33,769 nucleotides of DNA, from NCBI GenBank assembly GCA_018061005.1, contig JAGOVA010000028.1, positions 1-33,769 on the forward strand, in the 5' to 3' direction. The translations under genes and the position numbers were made by a program. The notes under the pieces are model-generated. The model was not told where the DNA came from. It made no database searches and saw only the letters and a list, made by a program, of their open reading frames with translations. Position 1 is the first letter of the stretch. Each line of letters opens with the position of its first letter. This DNA comes from Sterolibacterium sp. (lineage in GTDB: Bacteria; Pseudomonadota; Gammaproteobacteria; Burkholderiales; Rhodocyclaceae). This document shows, in pieces, positions 3,909 to 23,002 of this stretch.

Positions 3909-4644
3909 ACGTCGTTTCATTTATGGTTTTCACGCCATCATCGCCAAGTTGCGTCACAGCCCGGATGACGTGGCTGAAATCTATCTTGATCAGCAGCGCC
4001 AGGATGCGCGGGCGCGCGATCTCATCAAACTGGCGGAAACCCACAAACGCCGTCTGATTCCGGTCGATGCCTCACGGCTCGATGGCATGGCGGGCGGCCA
4101 TGCCCGTCATCAGGGGGTGGTTGCGCTGGTGACGGGCACGCAACGCGTGCTCAAGCTGGACGATGTGCTCGATACCCTGACCGAACCGGCATTGCTGCTG
4201 GTGCTCGATGGTGTGCAGGATCCGCACAATCTGGGTGCCTGTCTGCGTGCGGCCGATGCGGCTGGCGCACATGCCATCATCGCGCCCAAGGATCGTGCCT
4301 GTGGTTTGAATGCGACCGCTGTCAAGGTCGCCAGTGGTGCGGCCGAGACGGTTCCCTATGTGACGGTCACCAACCTTGCCCGCACCCTGCGCGAATTACA
4401 GGAGCGCGACATCCTGACGATCGGCGCGACGGGTGAAGCAGAGGCGGATCTCTATGCCGTGGATCAGCGCGTACCGCTGGCCTGGGTGCTGGGGGCGGAA
4501 GGCGATGGCCTGCGTCGCCTGACGCGTGAAACCTGCGATGTCCTCGCGCGCATTCCGATGCTGGGTAGTGTGGAAAGCCTCAATGTGTCGGTGGCCAGCG
4601 GGATCTGCCTGTTTGAAGCAAGAAGACAGCGCATGTCGCAGTAG
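3901..4644 (+). CDS. rlmB: 23S rRNA (guanosine-2'-O)-methyltransferase RlmB (SPOUT family)
   Basis: RlmB methylates the ribose of a conserved guanosine (G2251 in E. coli numbering) in 23S rRNA using S-adenosylmethionine. The 247-residue length is typical. The N-terminal substrate-binding domain begins [12 protein letters not shown]. The knotted SPOUT domain shows motif 1 ([17 protein letters not shown], about residues 103-119), motif 2 (LGAEGDGL, about 197) and motif 3 ([15 protein letters not shown]). The start chosen is GTG at 3901, preceded by AGGAAAG and giving the expected N terminus MAERRFIYG; a longer frame from 3868 would run through the rnr tail. The 8-base overlap with rnr suggests translational coupling, and the rnr-rlmB pair is common in proteobacteria. 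Confidence 0.95.
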
Positions 4645-16737: not shown

Positions 16738-17841
16738 TCAGGATTTGCGGCGACCCGAGGCTACGGAGAGCAGCATCGTGATTACGAATAACGCCAAAGC
16801 CAGGCCATTGCCGATGGCAGCGGTCTGGCGCAATAAACTTTGATCTGCTTCCAGGAAATCAGCCAGGACGCGCATGAGTAGTGAGGTGTGCAGGGCGATC
16901 AAGGGAAGATAAAAAGTTGGGTGATAGGGGATTTTGACTCTGACTACAGCCGGAAAAATGATGGGGGCATGGCCAAAAATCATCGAAAAGACAAAGCCCA
17001 GAAAAATGCTGTGCAACGCGGCATCATGGAGTGGAGAACCCGCAGTTTCAGCCATGAATCCGCCCAGGACACCCAGGACACCCCCCGTGGCCAGCCAGCC
17101 ATAGCCACTCAGCAGGCAGAGGGCGATGAAGCGGGTGAGCCCGGATTGTTTGATGGTGCGCCGGGCAATATCGTAGCGAAACAGCCAGCCCGCCAGGATG
17201 ATGAGTGTCAAGGCATACAGTGTGAGTCCCAGAGACTCATTCCAGAATGCGCTGGTCAGGCTCAGCAGTAACACCCCGATCAGTAGGGCAAAGAAGCGTT
17301 GCGCGTCGCGGGGTGTGGGCAGATAGCGGGTGAGTTCGAGACGTTCTCCTGCAATGGTGAGGACGAGGAAAGCCATCCACCATGGTACTGCAGCAGGAAT
17401 GAGATGGCTTGCCCACCAGGTCAAACTACCGATCAACCAGCTGAGTGCGCCTAGTGCCAATGTGGCCGTGTAGATGGCAGGTTGCTGGCGAAAAATCAGC
17501 AAACTGCCTGTGGTGAGTGTGGCACCGCCGATGATATTGAGCCCTGATGCGAACTCTGCGGGTAGCCCCGCCATCAAGGCCAGCCCACTGGATCCGGCGC
17601 AAAGAGGTGCCAGATAAGCCCACGGACGCGCCAGTGCCACGGCACGTTCCAGACTGATGACCGTGCCTAAAAAAGCCGGAATCATCAGTGCGCCATGCCC
17701 CCAGGCGAGGGTGGCGGCCTGGGGGGCGTATGGAATCTGGCTGATGCCCATACGCGCCAGGCCGGCCAGTACACCCGCGATCAGAGCGAGCATGCCAAAC
17801 AGCAGCAGAGGCAGGCGGGCAATGGGTGTTATCGGTGCCAT
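16738..17841 (-). CDS. nnrS: NnrS family membrane protein
   Basis: The 367-residue polytopic inner-membrane protein has about ten to twelve hydrophobic segments. NnrS proteins are heme- and copper-containing and relieve nitrosative stress in denitrifiers and pathogens; genes of the family are typical NsrR targets. Landmarks are TLAWGHGALMIPAFLGTVIS, HSIFLGFVFSMIFGHAPIIF and PYHPTFYLPLIALHTSLLMR, with several in-membrane histidines that could bind metal. It lies 21 bp downstream of DUF2249 and 11 bp upstream of the FmdE-like gene. No good ribosome-binding site precedes ATG 17841, so coupling to the upstream gene is possible. Confidence 0.85.
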   Translation of the reverse strand: MAPITPIARLPLLLFGMLALIAGVLAGLARMGISQIPYAPQAATLAWGHGALMIPAFLGTVISLERAVALARPWAYLAPLCAGSSGLALMAGLPAEFASGLNIIGGATLTTGSLLIFRQQPAIYTATLALGALSWLIGSLTWWASHLIPAAVPWWMAFLVLTIAGERLELTRYLPTPRDAQRFFALLIGVLLLSLTSAFWNESLGLTLYALTLIILAGWLFRYDIARRTIKQSGLTRFIALCLLSGYGWLATGGVLGVLGGFMAETAGSPLHDAALHSIFLGFVFSMIFGHAPIIFPAVVRVKIPYHPTFYLPLIALHTSLLMRVLADFLEADQSLLRQTAAIGNGLALALFVITMLLSVASGRRKS

Positions 17842-18171: not shown

Positions 18172-18507
18172 TCACCAGCCAAAATGTTTGCGAGCTTCTT
18201 CACTCATCAGCGCCGGGCTCCATGGGGGTTCCCAGACCAGGCGCACCTCAGATTGCAGGCTCGCTGGAAGTTGCTCGCGCAATACAGCCTCGACATCCTC
18301 GACGATCATTTCTCCCATCGGGCAAGCCGGGGAAGTCATGGTCATTTCAAGTGTGAGTGAGCGGCCATCTGCGGCAATATCGAGATGGTAGATCAGGCCG
18401 AGATCGACGATGTTCATGCCAACCTCTGGGTCAATCACCTGTCGCAAAGCGTTGAGCAGTGTGTCTTGATCGAGAGGATGGTCGGTGACTGTATTGAGCG
18501 GTGTCAT
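18172..18507 (-). CDS. MIP18/DUF59 family Fe-S assembly factor
   Basis: The 111-residue protein is a single DUF59 (MIP18, SufT/PaaD-like) domain. It has VIDPEVGMNIVDLGLIYHLD (residues 25-43) and the signature cysteine in TMTSPACPMGEM (Cys62). Related proteins help assemble or deliver iron-sulfur clusters. Its place as first gene of an NO-stress operon suggests repair of NO-damaged clusters, which is inference. The start chosen is ATG 18507; a TTG at 18528 is in frame but would lie inside the operator palindrome at 18518-18538. Gap to the next gene is 33 bp. Confidence 0.85.
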   Translation of the reverse strand: MTPLNTVTDHPLDQDTLLNALRQVIDPEVGMNIVDLGLIYHLDIAADGRSLTLEMTMTSPACPMGEMIVEDVEAVLREQLPASLQSEVRLVWEPPWSPALMSEEARKHFGW

Positions 18508-18517
18508 GGCTTTTGAA

Positions 18518-18538
18518 AGATGTATCAAAGATACACCT
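18518..18538. promoter_or_regulatory. NsrR-type operator upstream of the DUF59 operon
   Basis: A 21-bp near-perfect palindrome has halves AGATGTATC and GATACACCT around AAA; eight of nine positions are symmetric. It matches the general NsrR pattern (AAGATGTAT-type halves) and lies 11 bases before the ATG of the DUF59 gene, where bound repressor would block transcription. Its core TGTATCAAA is repeated exactly at 19292-19312. Confidence 0.68.
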
Positions 18539-18565
18539 GAAGCCTAGCAGTAGGAAGCCAGAAAA

Positions 18566-18586
18566 TCAATATATAAAATATATCTT
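18566..18586. promoter_or_regulatory. possible second, weaker operator or AT-rich promoter element
   Basis: ATATAT (18569-18574) and ATATAT (18578-18583) flank AAA; the right flank CTT completes an AAGATATAT half on the minus strand, while the left flank does not. It could be a weak NsrR site or simply the AT-rich promoter region of the minus-strand operon. Confidence 0.3.
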
Positions 18587-18613
18587 CATATCGGTGGCTG
18601 GGGAAGGCGGGGG

Positions 18614-18755
18614 GCATCCCCGCGTAGGCGGAGATTCCGCCCCAGCACCGACCCGAGGCACTCGCAAGTTTTGGATTCCCTCCTGCGCGGGAATGACGCG
18701 TACAGACTACTGCCCGTGGCCTGCGGGATGCTTGCTGGCGTCATTGCTAATCAGG
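18614..18755 (+). repeat. dispersed intergenic repeat, copy 2
   Basis: This is the second copy of the element at 8408-8563, in the same orientation. It shares GACCCGAGGC-N-CTCGCAAG, CCTGCGCGGGAATGACG and terminal CATTGCT-N-ATCAGG. Its hairpin (18675-18694) has one mismatch. Its right end runs over the last codons and stop of nsrR (stop at 18747-18749). It fills most of the gap between nsrR and the DUF59 gene. Confidence 0.72.
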
Positions 18756-19214
18756 AGATTTTTTTGTAACAGGCAGGCTTTGATTGATTTTGAGCAATTT
18801 TCCGATGGCACTTTGCTTGCTCATCAGGTCGGCCAGGGTGTACTCATCCAAGGTTGTGTAGAGTGCCTCGAAAGCGCGCTCGAGTATGTGGTTGAGTTGG
18901 CAGGCTGGCGCGATACAGCATTGAGATGGTGTCGCGGCCATACATTCCACAATCGGCCCGCCACCTTCACTGGCACGCACAACATCGCCCAGTCGAATTT
19001 CTTCGGCAGCATGCGCCAGACGAATCCCGCCGCCCTTGCCTCGCGTGGATTCGATGATCCCGTTGCGTGAAAGTTGATGGACGACTTTCATCAGGTGGTT
19101 GCCAGAAATTTTGTAAGCATCGGCGATTTCGGCAATCGTGATGAGCTTTCCGGGTTCAAGCGCGAGATACATCAGAACCCGCAAGGTGTAGTCAGAGAAA
19201 GTGGTCAGGCGCAT
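18747..19214 (-). CDS. nsrR: Rrf2-family nitric-oxide-sensing repressor NsrR
   Basis: The 155-residue protein begins MRLTTFSDYTLRVLMYLALE, has the recognition helix region SGNHLMKVVHQLSRNG and the wing STRGKGGGIRLA, and continues IRLGDVVRASE. The cluster-binding loop holds Cys91, Cys99, Cys100 and Cys105. By alignment with E. coli NsrR (Cys91/96/102), Cys91, Cys99 and Cys105 are the likely Fe-S ligands, with a loop three residues longer and an extra Cys100. NsrR loses DNA binding when NO attacks its cluster. The start is ATG 19214; the upstream in-frame TTG (19253) is unlikely. The C-terminal codons lie in a dispersed repeat. Its position between two arms that share an operator supports the NsrR call over IscR or RsrR. 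Confidence 0.88.
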   Translation of the reverse strand: MRLTTFSDYTLRVLMYLALEPGKLITIAEIADAYKISGNHLMKVVHQLSRNGIIESTRGKGGGIRLAHAAEEIRLGDVVRASEGGGPIVECMAATPSQCCIAPACQLNHILERAFEALYTTLDEYTLADLMSKQSAIGKLLKINQSLPVTKKSPD

Positions 19215-19241
19215 GGTGGTGTCCCAGTGAAAATGGGGTTT

Positions 19242-19263
19242 AAGATGTAGCAAATATATTGCT
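19242..19263. promoter_or_regulatory. candidate operator upstream of nsrR
   Basis: AAGATGTAG (19242-19250) is a good NsrR-type left half but the right half is poor. The same stretch holds a perfect AGCAA-N5-TTGCT inverted repeat (19249-19263). It lies 28 bases before the nsrR start and could mediate autoregulation. Confidence 0.35.
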
Positions 19264-19291
19264 TTAACGGAATGAAGTTGCTATGCTGAAA

Positions 19292-19312
19292 TCCTGTATC
19301 AAATATACCTTA
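19292..19312. promoter_or_regulatory. NsrR-type operator upstream of the plus-strand arm
   Basis: TCCTGTATC and TATACCTTA flank AAA. The core TGTATCAAA is identical to the operator at 18518-18538, and the right sides agree as ATAC-x-CCT versus ATACCT. It lies 24 bases before the second DUF2249 gene, a position suited to repression. Confidence 0.62.
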
Positions 19313-19335
19313 TGTTTGTGCCGGGAGGATGGATC

Positions 19336-19638
19336 ATGGTTTCAGTACATCAGCAGGTGAGCCAGCTGGATTTGCGTCAAATCACAGCCGTTGAACGCCA
19401 ACCACGGGTTTTTGATCGGTTTAATCAGATGCAGCCTGGCGACACGCTATGGTTGACCCATTTTCATCATTCATTGCCTTTGTTGTATTTGTTGCTGGCG
19501 GAGTCCCCCCGGGGTTTTACCTGGAAATATCTCGAGGAGGGACCCAAACGCTGGCGCATCCGGATTGACAAAATGAACGGGGTGAATGGGGTGAACAGAA
19601 AGATAGCAGCGGAGCTTGCTGTGCAGACCGCACATTGA
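19336..19638 (+). CDS. DUF2249 domain protein (plus arm)
   Basis: The 100-residue protein is a paralogue of the one at 17863: LDLRQITAVERQPRVFDRFN, THFHHSLPLLYLLLAESPRG and WKYLEEGPKRWRIRIDK align throughout. The DHDP motif is changed to HFHHSLPL, so the histidine content differs and the metal or partner may differ too. A short tail contains an in-frame GVN-GVN duplication. The start is ATG 19336 with GGGAGG at 19323-19328; ATG 19312 would overlap the operator. It lies 19 bp upstream of the reductase gene and begins the plus-strand arm. Confidence 0.82.
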   Translation: MVSVHQQVSQLDLRQITAVERQPRVFDRFNQMQPGDTLWLTHFHHSLPLLYLLLAESPRGFTWKYLEEGPKRWRIRIDKMNGVNGVNRKIAAELAVQTAH

Positions 19639-19657
19639 CGCAAAGCGGGGGGGCAAA

Positions 19658-20494
19658 ATGGACATGGCGGTCAATTTGGCAAAACCGGGATTCCCGGTGG
19701 GTGTGGATCAGCGCACGGTTGAGGCCGCGACAAAATGGTCAGAAGAGCACGTGCTCGCCCTGCATCGCTGGTCACCTACGTTGTTTTCTGTGCGGACGAC
19801 ACGTTCATCGGCCTTTCGTTTTACGCCAGGCCAGTTTGCCCGGCTCGGGATCGTGGATGAGGCTGGCGGTGCGTTGATCTGGCGCGCTTATTCAATGGCT
19901 TCTGCGAATTATGACGAGCATCTCGAGTTTTTTTCCATACTTGTGCCTGATGGAGCTTTTACCTCGCGCCTGACGAACATTGCGCCGGGCGCACCGATTT
20001 TGGTCGAGAAAGCCAGCTACGGTTTTCTGACGGCAGATCGTTTTGTCGGTGGGCGTGATTTGTGGCTGCTGGCCACGGGTACGGGGCTCGCGCCGTTTTT
20101 GTCCATATTGCACGATCCGGCAGTGTGGGATAAATATGAGAACATCATTTTGGTCTATAGCGTGCGTTATGCCAGTGAGCTTGCCTATCAAGATGAAATT
20201 GCGGCGTTGCCTGCGCGTGAGTTGCTGCGTGATGGCCGCGCGCACTTGCACTATGTTCCGGTGGTGACGCGGGAGCCTGTGGCGGGGGCGTTGTCGGCGC
20301 GCATCACTCAGTTGATCACGGAGGGTCGGCTGGAAGAGGTCGTCGGCTTGCCACTGGAAATTGAGCACTCGCGTTTGATGATCTGCGGTAATCCGCAGAT
20401 GGCACTGGATTTGCGTGAAGTTTTGACAGGACGTGGCTTTAGAACCGGTCGGCGTGGGGTACCCGGGCAACTGGCTTTTGAAAACTATTGGTAG
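19658..20494 (+). CDS. fpr: ferredoxin--NADP+ reductase (bacterial FPR type)
   Basis: The 278-residue flavoprotein moves electrons between NADPH and ferredoxin or flavodoxin. It shows the FAD-binding region FTPGQFARLGI and RAYSMAS (residues 76-82), then the NADP-binding GTGLAPFLSI (141-150), ICGNPQM and an aromatic C terminus FENYW. These features and the length fit the bacterial FPR subfamily. In E. coli and Azotobacter such enzymes serve redox-stress responses and Fe-S enzyme reactivation. Here it may supply electrons for NO removal or cluster repair, which is inference from context. The start is ATG 19658 preceded by a G-run; the second Met is two codons on. The gene ends 16 bases before the GGGAAA array. 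Confidence 0.9.
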   Translation: MDMAVNLAKPGFPVGVDQRTVEAATKWSEEHVLALHRWSPTLFSVRTTRSSAFRFTPGQFARLGIVDEAGGALIWRAYSMASANYDEHLEFFSILVPDGAFTSRLTNIAPGAPILVEKASYGFLTADRFVGGRDLWLLATGTGLAPFLSILHDPAVWDKYENIILVYSVRYASELAYQDEIAALPARELLRDGRAHLHYVPVVTREPVAGALSARITQLITEGRLEEVVGLPLEIEHSRLMICGNPQMALDLREVLTGRGFRTGRRGVPGQLAFENYW

Positions 20495-20509
20495 GCCGCC
20501 GGTTGTTCT

Positions 20510-20580
20510 GGAAAGGGAAAGGGAAAGGGAAAGGGAAAGGGAAAGGGAAAGGGAAAGGGAAAGGGAAAGGGAAAGGGAAA
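20510..20580 (+). repeat. (GGGAAA)n hexanucleotide microsatellite upstream of the hemerythrin-like gene
   Basis: The array has 11 perfect GGGAAA units (GGG tracts from 20515 to 20577, every 6 bases) plus a leading GGAAA. It occupies most of the 90-bp gap between fpr and the hemerythrin-like gene and ends 4 bases before the ATG at 20585. Four or more GGG tracts with AAA loops match the G-quadruplex pattern on the transcribed-sense strand. Each unit also contains AAGGGA, an imperfect Shine-Dalgarno; the last is 6 bases before the ATG. Unit-number change by slippage would not shift any frame. Confidence 0.95.
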
Positions 20581-20584
20581 GCCG

Positions 20585-21037
20585 ATGAAACGCAGCACCG
20601 CACTGACCTCTTTGTCGCGTGAGCATCACACAGCACTTGTATTGGCCAAGCAGGCACAGCGTCTGGCGCACGATCAGCCGGAATCGCCGGCGGTGCAGAT
20701 GTTTATGTCTGCCTTGAAAGCACGCTTTAGCAGCGAACTTGAACCGCATTTTCAGGTCGAGGAAACGACATTGCTGCGGGCACTCGAGGAAAATACGGAT
20801 ATGGATACGGAGGCGCGTGCGCTGGCACGGCGCACCCGGCATGAACACGAAGCCTTGCGTGCGCTGGCGCAGCGTGTATCGGCACTGGATTTTTCCAGCC
20901 TCGCGCCCTTTGGCGAGTTGCTTGCGGCGCATGTCAGATTCGAGGAGCGCGAGTTGTTTGATCGGGCGGAAAGCCTGCTCTCAGTACAGCAACTGGCGTG
21001 CGTCGCGGCGGCCAGCGCGATGCAATCGCACGCCTGA
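20585..21037 (+). CDS. hemerythrin-like HHE domain protein
   Basis: The 150-residue alpha-helical protein has the metal-ligand pattern of bacterial hemerythrin-like (HHE) proteins: His14/His15 (SREHHTALVLAK), His55 with Glu59/60 (EPHFQVEE), His86/His88 (RHEHEAL), and His116 with Glu120/121 (HVRFEERELF). Such diiron proteins bind O2 or NO or help iron-sulfur repair (compare RIC/YtfE, which has an extra N-terminal domain not seen here). The only ribosome-binding sequence is the GGGAAA array upstream. Its placement after NsrR-controlled genes supports a nitrosative-stress role. Confidence 0.87.
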   Translation: MKRSTALTSLSREHHTALVLAKQAQRLAHDQPESPAVQMFMSALKARFSSELEPHFQVEETTLLRALEENTDMDTEARALARRTRHEHEALRALAQRVSALDFSSLAPFGELLAAHVRFEERELFDRAESLLSVQQLACVAAASAMQSHA

Positions 21038-21080
21038 AGTCAGGTATCGCATGTGTTTCATGTAACCCGGGAGAACCGCC

Positions 21081-21413
21081 ATGTCCATGCCCCACGCTGC
21101 TTCGGGTGAGGTTTTTGATGTCCGCCCCATGGGTGAGCATTTTCGTGAGAAGTCTTCGGTGACGCTGGTGCGTGCCGAGCATCTGGAAGTGTTCCGCCTG
21201 GTTTTACCGGCAGGTAAAGCCACGCCCGGTCACAAGGCGGCAGGAAGCATCACCCTGCAATGCCTGGAAGGGCAGGTTGAACTGGAGGCGCATGGGCGCA
21301 CCCAGTTATTGCAGCCGGGTGACATGGTTTATCTGGCCGATGCCGAGCCGCATGCCGTGAAGGCACTGGAAAATAGCTCCTTGTTGATTACGCTGCTGCT
21401 GCACCGGGTTTGA
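21081..21413 (+). CDS. small cupin-domain protein
   Basis: The 110-residue single-domain cupin shows the two conserved motifs: AGKATPGHKAAGSITLQCLE (His51) and PGDMVYLADAEPHAVKA (His91). The motif set is reduced, so metal binding by His51 and His91 is possible but not certain. Small cupins of this kind are common partners of DUF2249 and hemerythrin genes. GGGAG at 21069-21073 sets the start. It lies 43 bp after the hemerythrin-like gene and probably ends the plus-strand operon. Confidence 0.84.
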   Translation: MSMPHAASGEVFDVRPMGEHFREKSSVTLVRAEHLEVFRLVLPAGKATPGHKAAGSITLQCLEGQVELEAHGRTQLLQPGDMVYLADAEPHAVKALENSSLLITLLLHRV

Positions 21414-21477
21414 GCACGGGAACCCTCTTGCCTGCCATTGCCAGCCAGATGATAGGCAAAATTAACCTGGAATTTCG

Positions 21478-21483
21478 TATACT
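21478..21483 (+). promoter_or_regulatory. candidate -10 box of the flavin dehydrogenase gene
   Basis: TATACT is a near-consensus -10 hexamer 40 bases before the GTG at 21524. No convincing -35 is visible at 16-18 bp spacing. Just upstream, TTGCCT and AGGCAA form an inverted repeat of unknown meaning. Confidence 0.38.
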
Positions 21484-21523
21484 CGCCCCTCTGGTCATCC
21501 CTTTACCGTAGGAGCGCGTCGCC

Positions 21524-23002
21524 GTGACAACATCTGTACATATGCCGTCCCATCCCTGTCGTCTGGCCGATGTTCCGCATTGGGATGGCGAGGCGGATGC
21601 GTTGATCGTGGGTTACGGTATTGCTGGCGCCTGTGCTGCGCTGGAGGCGAGCGCGGCAGGAGCGCAATGCCTGCTTTTCGAAAAGGCCGCAGGAGCGGGG
21701 GGGAGTTCGGCTCTATCGGGTGGGGAGTTTTATTTTGGCGGCAATGGCGGAACCCCTGTGCAGCGCGAGCATGGCTATCCGGATACGACGGAAGATTTTT
21801 ACAATTATTTGATGATGGCCGGTGGGCCGGGCGCCGATGCGGAGCGGGTGCGCCTGTATGCCGAAAATGCCTTGTCGCATTATGAATGGCTGGTGGCACA
21901 AGGCGTGCCTTTCAAGGGCACTTTTCATCCGGCACGCACGGCCGAGCCGCTGACCGATGACACGTTGGTCTGGAGTGGCAGCGAGTCTGCCTGGCCGTTC
22001 TGCGAGCACGCCCGACCCGCCCCGCGCGGCCATGCCGTGCAGAAGAAGGGGATGGGCGCTGGCAAGGTGGCCATGCAAAAGCTGGTTGAGCGGATTGTGA
22101 CCGAGCCACGCATCAGCGTCCATTACAACAGCCGCGCGCTTGCGCTGATCGTCGATACGGATCATGCCGTGCAGGGCATGGTGGTGCGGGTGGATGGAAC
22201 AGTCCGTTATTACCGGGCAAGAAAAGGGGTCGTCCTTTGCAGCGGAGGGTTTATCGACAACGAAGACATGGTGCGTCGTTATGCGCCGGATGCACTGCGT
22301 GTGGGCATTCATGTCAGCGGGGGGCAGGATGATGGTTCAGGGATTCGCATGGGCATCTCGGTGGGTGCTGCGGCGATCCACATGGATCAATTCTTGTCGA
22401 CGCGCGCCTTTGTGCCGCCAGAAAGCCTGATCCGCGGCATCTTCATCAATGAGCGCGGGCAACGCTTCATCAATGAAGACGCTTACCATGGCCGGATCGG
22501 TCAATACATCATGCGCCAGCCCAACGGGAATGCCTGGTTGCTGGTCGACAACCGGATTTTTGAACGTCCTGTATTGAACCCCGGGGTGGAGATTGCTGCC
22601 GTGGGTGAAACCTGGACGGAAATTGAAGAAGCGCTGGGCTTGCCTGCCGGAGAACTGCTACATACCGTTGAAAATTACAATCGTCATGCGCTTGCCGGCA
22701 CTGACCCTCTGTTTCACAAGCAGGCGGAATGGCTGCAGCCGTTAATTGAAGCACCTTTTGCTGCGTTGGCCTTTGGTGACCAAGCCTGGCCAGCGGCGGG
22801 CTTTACGCTGGGCGGGTTGGCCACCCGGACGACGGGGCAGGTCATTAATCCGGATGGCGCGGTGATCCCTGGCCTTTATGCGGCCGGGCGTGCGGCCTGT
22901 GGTTTGCCGCGCTGGGGCGAAGGCTACAGTTCGGGCATGTCGCTGGCCGATGCCAGTTACTTTGGTCGCCTTGCCGGGCAGCATCTGGCTACGGCGAGCT
23001 GA
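21524..23002 (+). CDS. FAD-dependent dehydrogenase of the fumarate reductase/KstD superfamily
   Basis: The 492-residue flavoprotein has an N-terminal Rossmann motif (ALIVGYGIAGACAALEAS, residues 26-43), the GGSSALSGGEFYFGG loop (59-73) and the C-terminal flavin motif WGEGYSSGMSLADASYFG. It also has RGIFINERGQRFINEDAYHG in the middle and GGLATRTTGQVINPDGAVIP near the end. This is the FAD_binding_2 superfamily that includes fumarate reductases, tricarballylate dehydrogenase and 3-ketosteroid 1-dehydrogenase. The substrate cannot be told from sequence. The start is GTG 21524 with AGGAG at 21510-21514; the ATG at 21542 lacks a ribosome-binding site. A ketosteroid-isomerase-fold gene follows 98 bp downstream. 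Confidence 0.85.
   Translation: MTTSVHMPSHPCRLADVPHWDGEADALIVGYGIAGACAALEASAAGAQCLLFEKAAGAGGSSALSGGEFYFGGNGGTPVQREHGYPDTTEDFYNYLMMAGGPGADAERVRLYAENALSHYEWLVAQGVPFKGTFHPARTAEPLTDDTLVWSGSESAWPFCEHARPAPRGHAVQKKGMGAGKVAMQKLVERIVTEPRISVHYNSRALALIVDTDHAVQGMVVRVDGTVRYYRARKGVVLCSGGFIDNEDMVRRYAPDALRVGIHVSGGQDDGSGIRMGISVGAAAIHMDQFLSTRAFVPPESLIRGIFINERGQRFINEDAYHGRIGQYIMRQPNGNAWLLVDNRIFERPVLNPGVEIAAVGETWTEIEEALGLPAGELLHTVENYNRHALAGTDPLFHKQAEWLQPLIEAPFAALAFGDQAWPAAGFTLGGLATRTTGQVINPDGAVIPGLYAAGRAACGLPRWGEGYSSGMSLADASYFGRLAGQHLATAS

Follow-up and report, generated by a model that had tools for sequence, protein, structure and literature searches.

A perfect array of twelve GGAAAG units fills most of the leader of a hemerythrin-like gene in the window (the whole 33,769-nt stretch of Sterolibacterium sp. 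DNA analyzed here). The array, its position, its rarity, the conserved order of the genes around it, and the single Shine–Dalgarno (SD) sites in the leaders of three congeners are established. The explanation that we favor, to which we assign a probability of roughly 60%, is that the array arose recently, and in this lineage only, as a microsatellite grown from the gene's own purine-rich SD, that it is still the ribosome-binding site, and that it probably weakens translation or adds noise to it. The features on which the analysis draws are listed here in the order of their coordinates.

18519–18537, unstranded: NsrR-like operator where the SufT–DUF2249–membrane protein genes begin, agreeing with the consensus at 13 of 14 positions (consensus scoring).
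18747–19253, minus strand: Rrf2-family regulator, NsrR-like (domain and NCBIfam matches).
19293–19311, unstranded: second, weaker palindrome of NsrR type (10 of 14), preceding the DUF2249–reductase–hemerythrin–cupin run (consensus scoring).
19312–19638, plus strand: DUF2249 protein, first of the same-strand run (ORF and domain match).
19679–20494, plus strand: ferredoxin-NADP reductase-like gene upstream of the leader, start inferred (ORF and domain matches).
20495–20584, plus strand: leader of 90 nt (72 nt of array, 18 nt without it), from the ferredoxin reductase-like stop to the hemerythrin ATG (sequence, duplex energies, gene-order comparison).
20510–20581, plus strand: (GGAAAG)12, a perfect hexanucleotide array with 11 GGG tracts (sequence, Tandem Repeats Finder, repeat-length comparisons).
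20573–20577, plus strand: AAGGG at the last complete GGG tract, presumably the SD in use, with 7 nt between it and the ATG (sequence and duplex energies).
20585–21037, plus strand: hemerythrin (HHE) domain protein of 150 aa (PF01814, E 1.3e-10).
21081–21413, plus strand: cupin protein, a conserved neighbor that follows the hemerythrin gene (domain match, gene-order comparison).

Tandem Repeats Finder describes window positions 20510–20581 (+) as 12.0 copies of GGAAAG with a period of 6, 100% matches, and a score of 144, which bears out the initial annotation of a GGGAAA array with 11 perfect GGG tracts on the sense strand. The tracts are separated by AAA spacers, and the mRNA of the downstream gene carries the purine strand. 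At period 6 the window's longest perfect run measures 72 bases, while the remaining periods from 1 to 9 reach at most 21, so that the array is not a product of chance. Across 238,019 bases, comprising the window and 20 stretches of the same genome, the next-longest perfect array with a period of 1–12 is 31 bases long, and the array is the sole place in its own 3.08-Mb assembly with an exact (GGGAAA)4. With 12.0 copies ending 3 nt before an ATG, it has the hallmarks of a simple sequence repeat, being perfect, made of many units, and situated where it is relevant to expression. The count of twelve is taken from a single draft assembly of 135 contigs and could be off by some units; an assembly chimera at this point is unlikely, because the genes on either side of the array adjoin each other in all three congeners. 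An antisense ORF of 346 aa (window 19892–20932, minus strand) crosses the array, where it encodes a Leu-Ser repeat, and is probably spurious.

The trinucleotide CCG alone separates the last unit, which ends at 20581, from the hemerythrin ATG at 20585. The array therefore does end just before the start codon as first described, with a gap of 3 nt rather than the 4 bases obtained by counting from the last AAA, and the PF01814 match upholds the original description of the gene as hemerythrin-like. The reductase-like stop codon TAG (20492–20494) is in frame with this ATG, and the stretch from one to the other contains no in-frame ATG, GTG, or TTG. As the 16S rRNA tail GGATCACCTCCTT went undetected in the assembly to which the window belongs, we borrowed it from the congener G002, the one of three congeners searched in which it was found, and computed duplex energies against ACCUCCUUA. 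Every GGG tract gives the same weak pairing with 16S rRNA, −5.3 kcal/mol, through five pairs over AAGGG, one of them G–U. All 9-mers of the 90-nt leader that pair with the tail at −4 kcal/mol or better overlap the array, which agrees with the earlier claim that SD-like sequence comes from nowhere else in the leader, although the element that pairs is AAGGG and not the AAGGGA originally named. The 7 nt between the last AAGGG and the ATG are the usual SD distance, and since the sole pairing in the leader lies within the array, we presume from the sequence that the array is the ribosome-binding site of the hemerythrin gene.

When quadruplex terms are omitted, the region 20470–20640 folds worse than all 200 of 200 shuffles (z = +4.3). 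No promoter-like site was detected in the leader and no internal plus-strand promoter within 18400–21600, and an Rfam search of 18400–21600 returned no match at E values up to 1. The same interval holds two terminator-like matches, against a mean of 3.8 in shuffles. One of the two is a 5-pair stem on the minus strand (20600–20583) whose tail, GCTTTCCCTT, consists of pyrimidines complementary to the array; as such matches are fewer than in shuffles, this stem is probably a chance occurrence.

Comparison with the genus suggests that the array is new in an otherwise conserved setting. Eight of the 11 window proteins compared keep their order in all three congeners, with best matches of 58–80% identity; these are the membrane protein, DUF2249, SufT, and Rrf2 genes on one strand, and the DUF2249, reductase, hemerythrin, and cupin genes on the other. 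The three genes downstream of the cupin gene have no match in the 11–12 kb taken from each congener. The array is present in one of the four genus genomes, and only the window's genome matches (GGGAAA)3 at up to 1 mismatch. The congener leaders, at 29, 38, and 99 nt, contain no repeats and carry the single SD sites GGAG, AAGGAG, and AAGGAGGU; their best pairings reach −5.6, −8.2, and −12.0 kcal/mol, all stronger than the −5.3 kcal/mol of the window, and the best-pairing 9-mers end 5, 8, and 7 nt before the start. We rejected the possibility of an old, conserved device, since absence of the array from all three congeners speaks against it. The flanks of the array are short and align to the congener leaders with uncertainty, so the seed from which it would have grown is presumptive. 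Additionally, no array was found in the 160 bases before 16 of 17 other hemerythrin matches from 61 genomes; L026 was left out, and the L025 match begins inside the protein, so that its true leader falls outside the 160 bases compared.

We infer that a GGAAAG seed in the SD element of the hemerythrin gene grew to 12 units by slipped-strand mispairing. The last GGG tract would serve as the SD, and the units upstream of it would be redundant SD copies within a leader that is otherwise unusually unstructured. Tracts that fold into quadruplexes would take up some of these copies, so translation of the hemerythrin gene would probably be weaker or noisier, with no on/off switch. New units enter upstream of the last SD and leave both the SD-to-start spacing and the reading frames untouched, which agrees with the initial proposal that unit number could change without a frameshift but refines it in regard to the spacing. 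What does change with unit number is how many GGG tracts and redundant SD copies there are and how far the start lies from the upstream stop codon; as the SD spacing is constant, unit number could act solely via structure, redundancy, or leader length.

An effect through structure could take a more elaborate form, in which the GGG tracts of the mRNA fold in fours, leftover tracts free the last SD, and unit number thereby sets translation stepwise. We regard this as unlikely, although several predictions fit it. Under a definition of at least four G-tracts of three with loops of 1–7 nt, the array is the one quadruplex motif on the plus strand of the window, none occurs on the minus strand, and 15 occur on both strands of the 238-kb sample. 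ViennaRNA predicts two quadruplexes in 20480–20620, with an energy of −42.6 kcal/mol with quadruplex terms and −17.4 kcal/mol without them, and in this sense the energy model supports the quadruplex potential that was originally noted. In a modeled series of 0–14 units the predicted number rises in steps, from none with up to 4 units to one with 5–8, two with 9–12, and three with 13–14. The literature offers some precedent, as a quadruplex about 20 bp upstream of the start is described as lowering translation in E. coli and one 43–46 bp above the SD as raising it (PMC11087576), and stabilized quadruplexes in natural mRNAs of another bacterium are reported to inhibit translation (PMC10801317). 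In a tract-counting model that grants each quadruplex at least 4 kcal/mol, the last tract is free in a fraction of 0.53 of states at 11 tracts, compared with 0.00–0.03 at 12 and 0.00–0.01 at 8. At 2 kcal/mol per quadruplex, however, the steps are weak (0.54, 0.34, and 0.18 at 11, 12, and 8 tracts). Furthermore, the energy and tract-counting models leave out loop sequence, proteins, and ribosomes, AAA loops weaken quadruplexes, and the array is not conserved in the genus. A stricter form of the stepwise idea is a modulo-four counter, in which the GGG tracts would act both as SD copies and as quadruplex strands, and co-transcriptional folding in the 5′-to-3′ direction would use them up in fours, leaving an SD exposed at 11 tracts and hidden at 8 or 12. 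Were this true, a gain of one unit would take the gene from peak to trough, the loss of one or two units would lower its output gradually, and that of three would shut it off. The tract-counting model gives still higher free-tract values at fewer tracts (0.71–0.72 at 7 and 1.0 at 3), which makes the current array length no more than a local peak. We consider such a counter very unlikely.

The remaining explanations concern selection, the DNA itself, and protein binding. Twelve perfect hexanucleotide units would be expected to slip, and selection might keep the array as a contingency locus because slippage diversifies the hemerythrin level from cell to cell. Repeats between promoter and start are described as tuning uspA1 and uspA2 in Moraxella catarrhalis (PMC4679880 and PMC7302503). 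The present case, however, is a single array at a single gene, presumably one for a cytoplasmic stress protein and not for a surface antigen; no other perfect array exceeds 31 bases in the 238-kb genome sample, and the congeners lack the array, all of which makes a contingency locus rather improbable. At the level of DNA or transcription, the homopurine mirror repeat could form a triplex or an R-loop, or its complement could supply the T-rich tail of an antisense terminator. The array is pure purine, and the pattern and the reversed pattern each match 8 times, a mirror symmetry given as a requirement of H-DNA (PMC4666352), but this symmetry follows automatically from any GGGAAA unit. The tail of the minus-strand stem does run into the array; yet the stem is short, its tail is weak, terminator-like matches are rarer here than in shuffles, and there is no conservation, leaving little probability for an element of this type. 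Lastly, the recognition core of CsrA is ANGGA, which the AGGGA of each unit fits, and the GGA overlaps the SD, so that the array could offer a platform for a CsrA-type RNA-binding repressor. The window's genome, in an assembly that is 93% complete, has no CsrA family match (0 of 1, with 3 of 14 control genomes matched), and this largely refutes the proposal, which we hold to be almost certainly wrong. From the sequence, the most likely explanation is a young SD microsatellite whose effect on translation would be at most quantitative.

The initial annotation placed the array in an NsrR-linked stress operon, and this holds better for the cluster as a whole than for the hemerythrin run. The best NCBIfam match of the Rrf2 protein is NsrR, at 133.9 bits against a cut-off of 182, followed by RirA at 129.8, and the Rrf2 superfamily cut-off is passed. 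Scored against the NsrR consensus gATGyAT-N5-ATrCATc (PMC1274295), a 13/14 operator lies at the same place at the start of the SufT genes in all four genomes of the genus, while a match of at least 13/14 arises anywhere in 4 of 100 mononucleotide shuffles of the window. The scores preceding the hemerythrin run are 10 (G000), 9 (G001), 11 (G002), and 11 (G003) of 14. Scoring across the window finds 16 places at 10/14 and 3 at 11/14, and because scores of this size also arise by chance, the NsrR link of the operon is less certain. An NsrR-type nitric oxide regulon is thus a likely assignment for the cluster on sequence grounds and a less certain one for the hemerythrin operon. The membrane protein of the cluster (16738–17841) has no Pfam or NCBIfam match.

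A scan of 84,980 species genomes for (GGGAAA)4 followed by G and then a base other than G, from which the window's own records may be excluded, returned 31 stretches, two of them (L035 and L037) from one MAG. Two arrays (L039 and L057) lie near a contig end, with one side cut. One stretch of the 31, L032, has the ATG of an ORF of at least 60 codons within 15 nt of the array; L042 (TTG) and L058 (a GTG overlapping the array) are near starts as well, and both arrays are inside longer open frames. In L032, from a Dehalococcoidia MAG, the GGGAAA units at 1684–1712, which lie 7 nt before the ATG of the next gene, encode a GKGK tail; we take the array-bearing gene to be rplI-like and the next to be dnaB-like, and the codons of the lysine-rich tail may double as an SD. 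The unrelated genome of Hahella sp. CCB-MM4 contains a second 12-unit GGGAAA array (L033, purine strand 4459–4530), 56 nt beyond the 3′ end of an opposite-strand gene, presumably transporter-like, and no 60-codon ORF starts within 60 nt after it. In the class sample, (GGGAAA)4 occurs in 2 of 369 genomes, the window's own and one of 0.4 Mb. Among viral contigs, three units precede an ATG in 8 stretches as compared to 11 for the GTA control, and there is thus no enrichment before ATG. Three of the eight have ORFs of at least 60 codons (L094, L097, and L099). The same frame is open upstream for 184 codons in L094 and 83 in L099, as against 19 in L097, so that only L097 looks like a possible leader; there, 3.5 GGGAAA units (438–462) directly precede the ATG of a 186-codon ORF. 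Long arrays of GGGAAA are thus rarely placed at an SD, and no second clear case turned up in the data searched. Likewise, none of the literature matches listed, which comprise titles and abstract openings and leave subscription literature mostly outside, reports a bacterial leader with an array of GGGAAA or of SD units. As a separate observation, polypurine tandem repeats of the AGAGGAGGG type in L081 (8893–8958, G000:C20) lie in an ORF that we assume to be acyl-CoA dehydrogenase-like, encode PSNPSSPSS on the other strand, and may be a VNTR.

A twelvefold SD before the gene of an iron protein could change the strength of translation, while a role as a cellular switch would be hypothetical. The array offers a clean system for asking whether bacterial translation responds to G-tract number in four-tract steps, and even an inert array would add a new example of an SD element seeding a microsatellite. 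Quadruplexes have reportedly been engineered near the SD in E. coli by Holder and Hartig and by Wieland and Hartig (both cited in PMC11087576), and to our knowledge quadruplexes this close to an SD come mainly from constructs. As in those designs, the G-tracts here overlap or adjoin the SD and would be expected to mask it; in contrast to single inserted quadruplexes, this is a natural array whose G-tracts double as the SD.

Among natural repeats, the G-tract of uspA1 and the AGAT repeat of uspA2 in Moraxella catarrhalis lie 29 and 132 bp away from the ORF and reportedly affect mRNA level (PMC4679880 and PMC7302503). They share with the array the form of a simple leader repeat whose length can change without affecting the reading frame, but here the repeat is itself the SD, lies inside an operon, and is known at one length from one genome. 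The TAACTGA heptamer arrays of marine Beggiatoaceae stand at start codons, number some 169 sets in a single genome, and have little SD character (PMC4679880). Both are short-unit tandem arrays that end a few nucleotides before a start and overlap the ribosome-binding site, whereas ours has a different unit, occurs once, and is SD-like throughout. The GGGNATC repeats of Xanthomonas and Nostoc, which likewise repeat a G-tract unit in tandem between genes and could form quadruplexes, are described as heptamers that occur many times per genome, prefer four units, and near starts are mostly antisense (PMC4692102); the array differs in being a GGGAAA hexamer with one exact four-unit place in its assembly, on the sense strand and at the SD. 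Leader repeats that tune expression are already known, and a natural repeat unit that is at once a presumed SD and a potential quadruplex strand would join them to the quadruplexes close to an SD.
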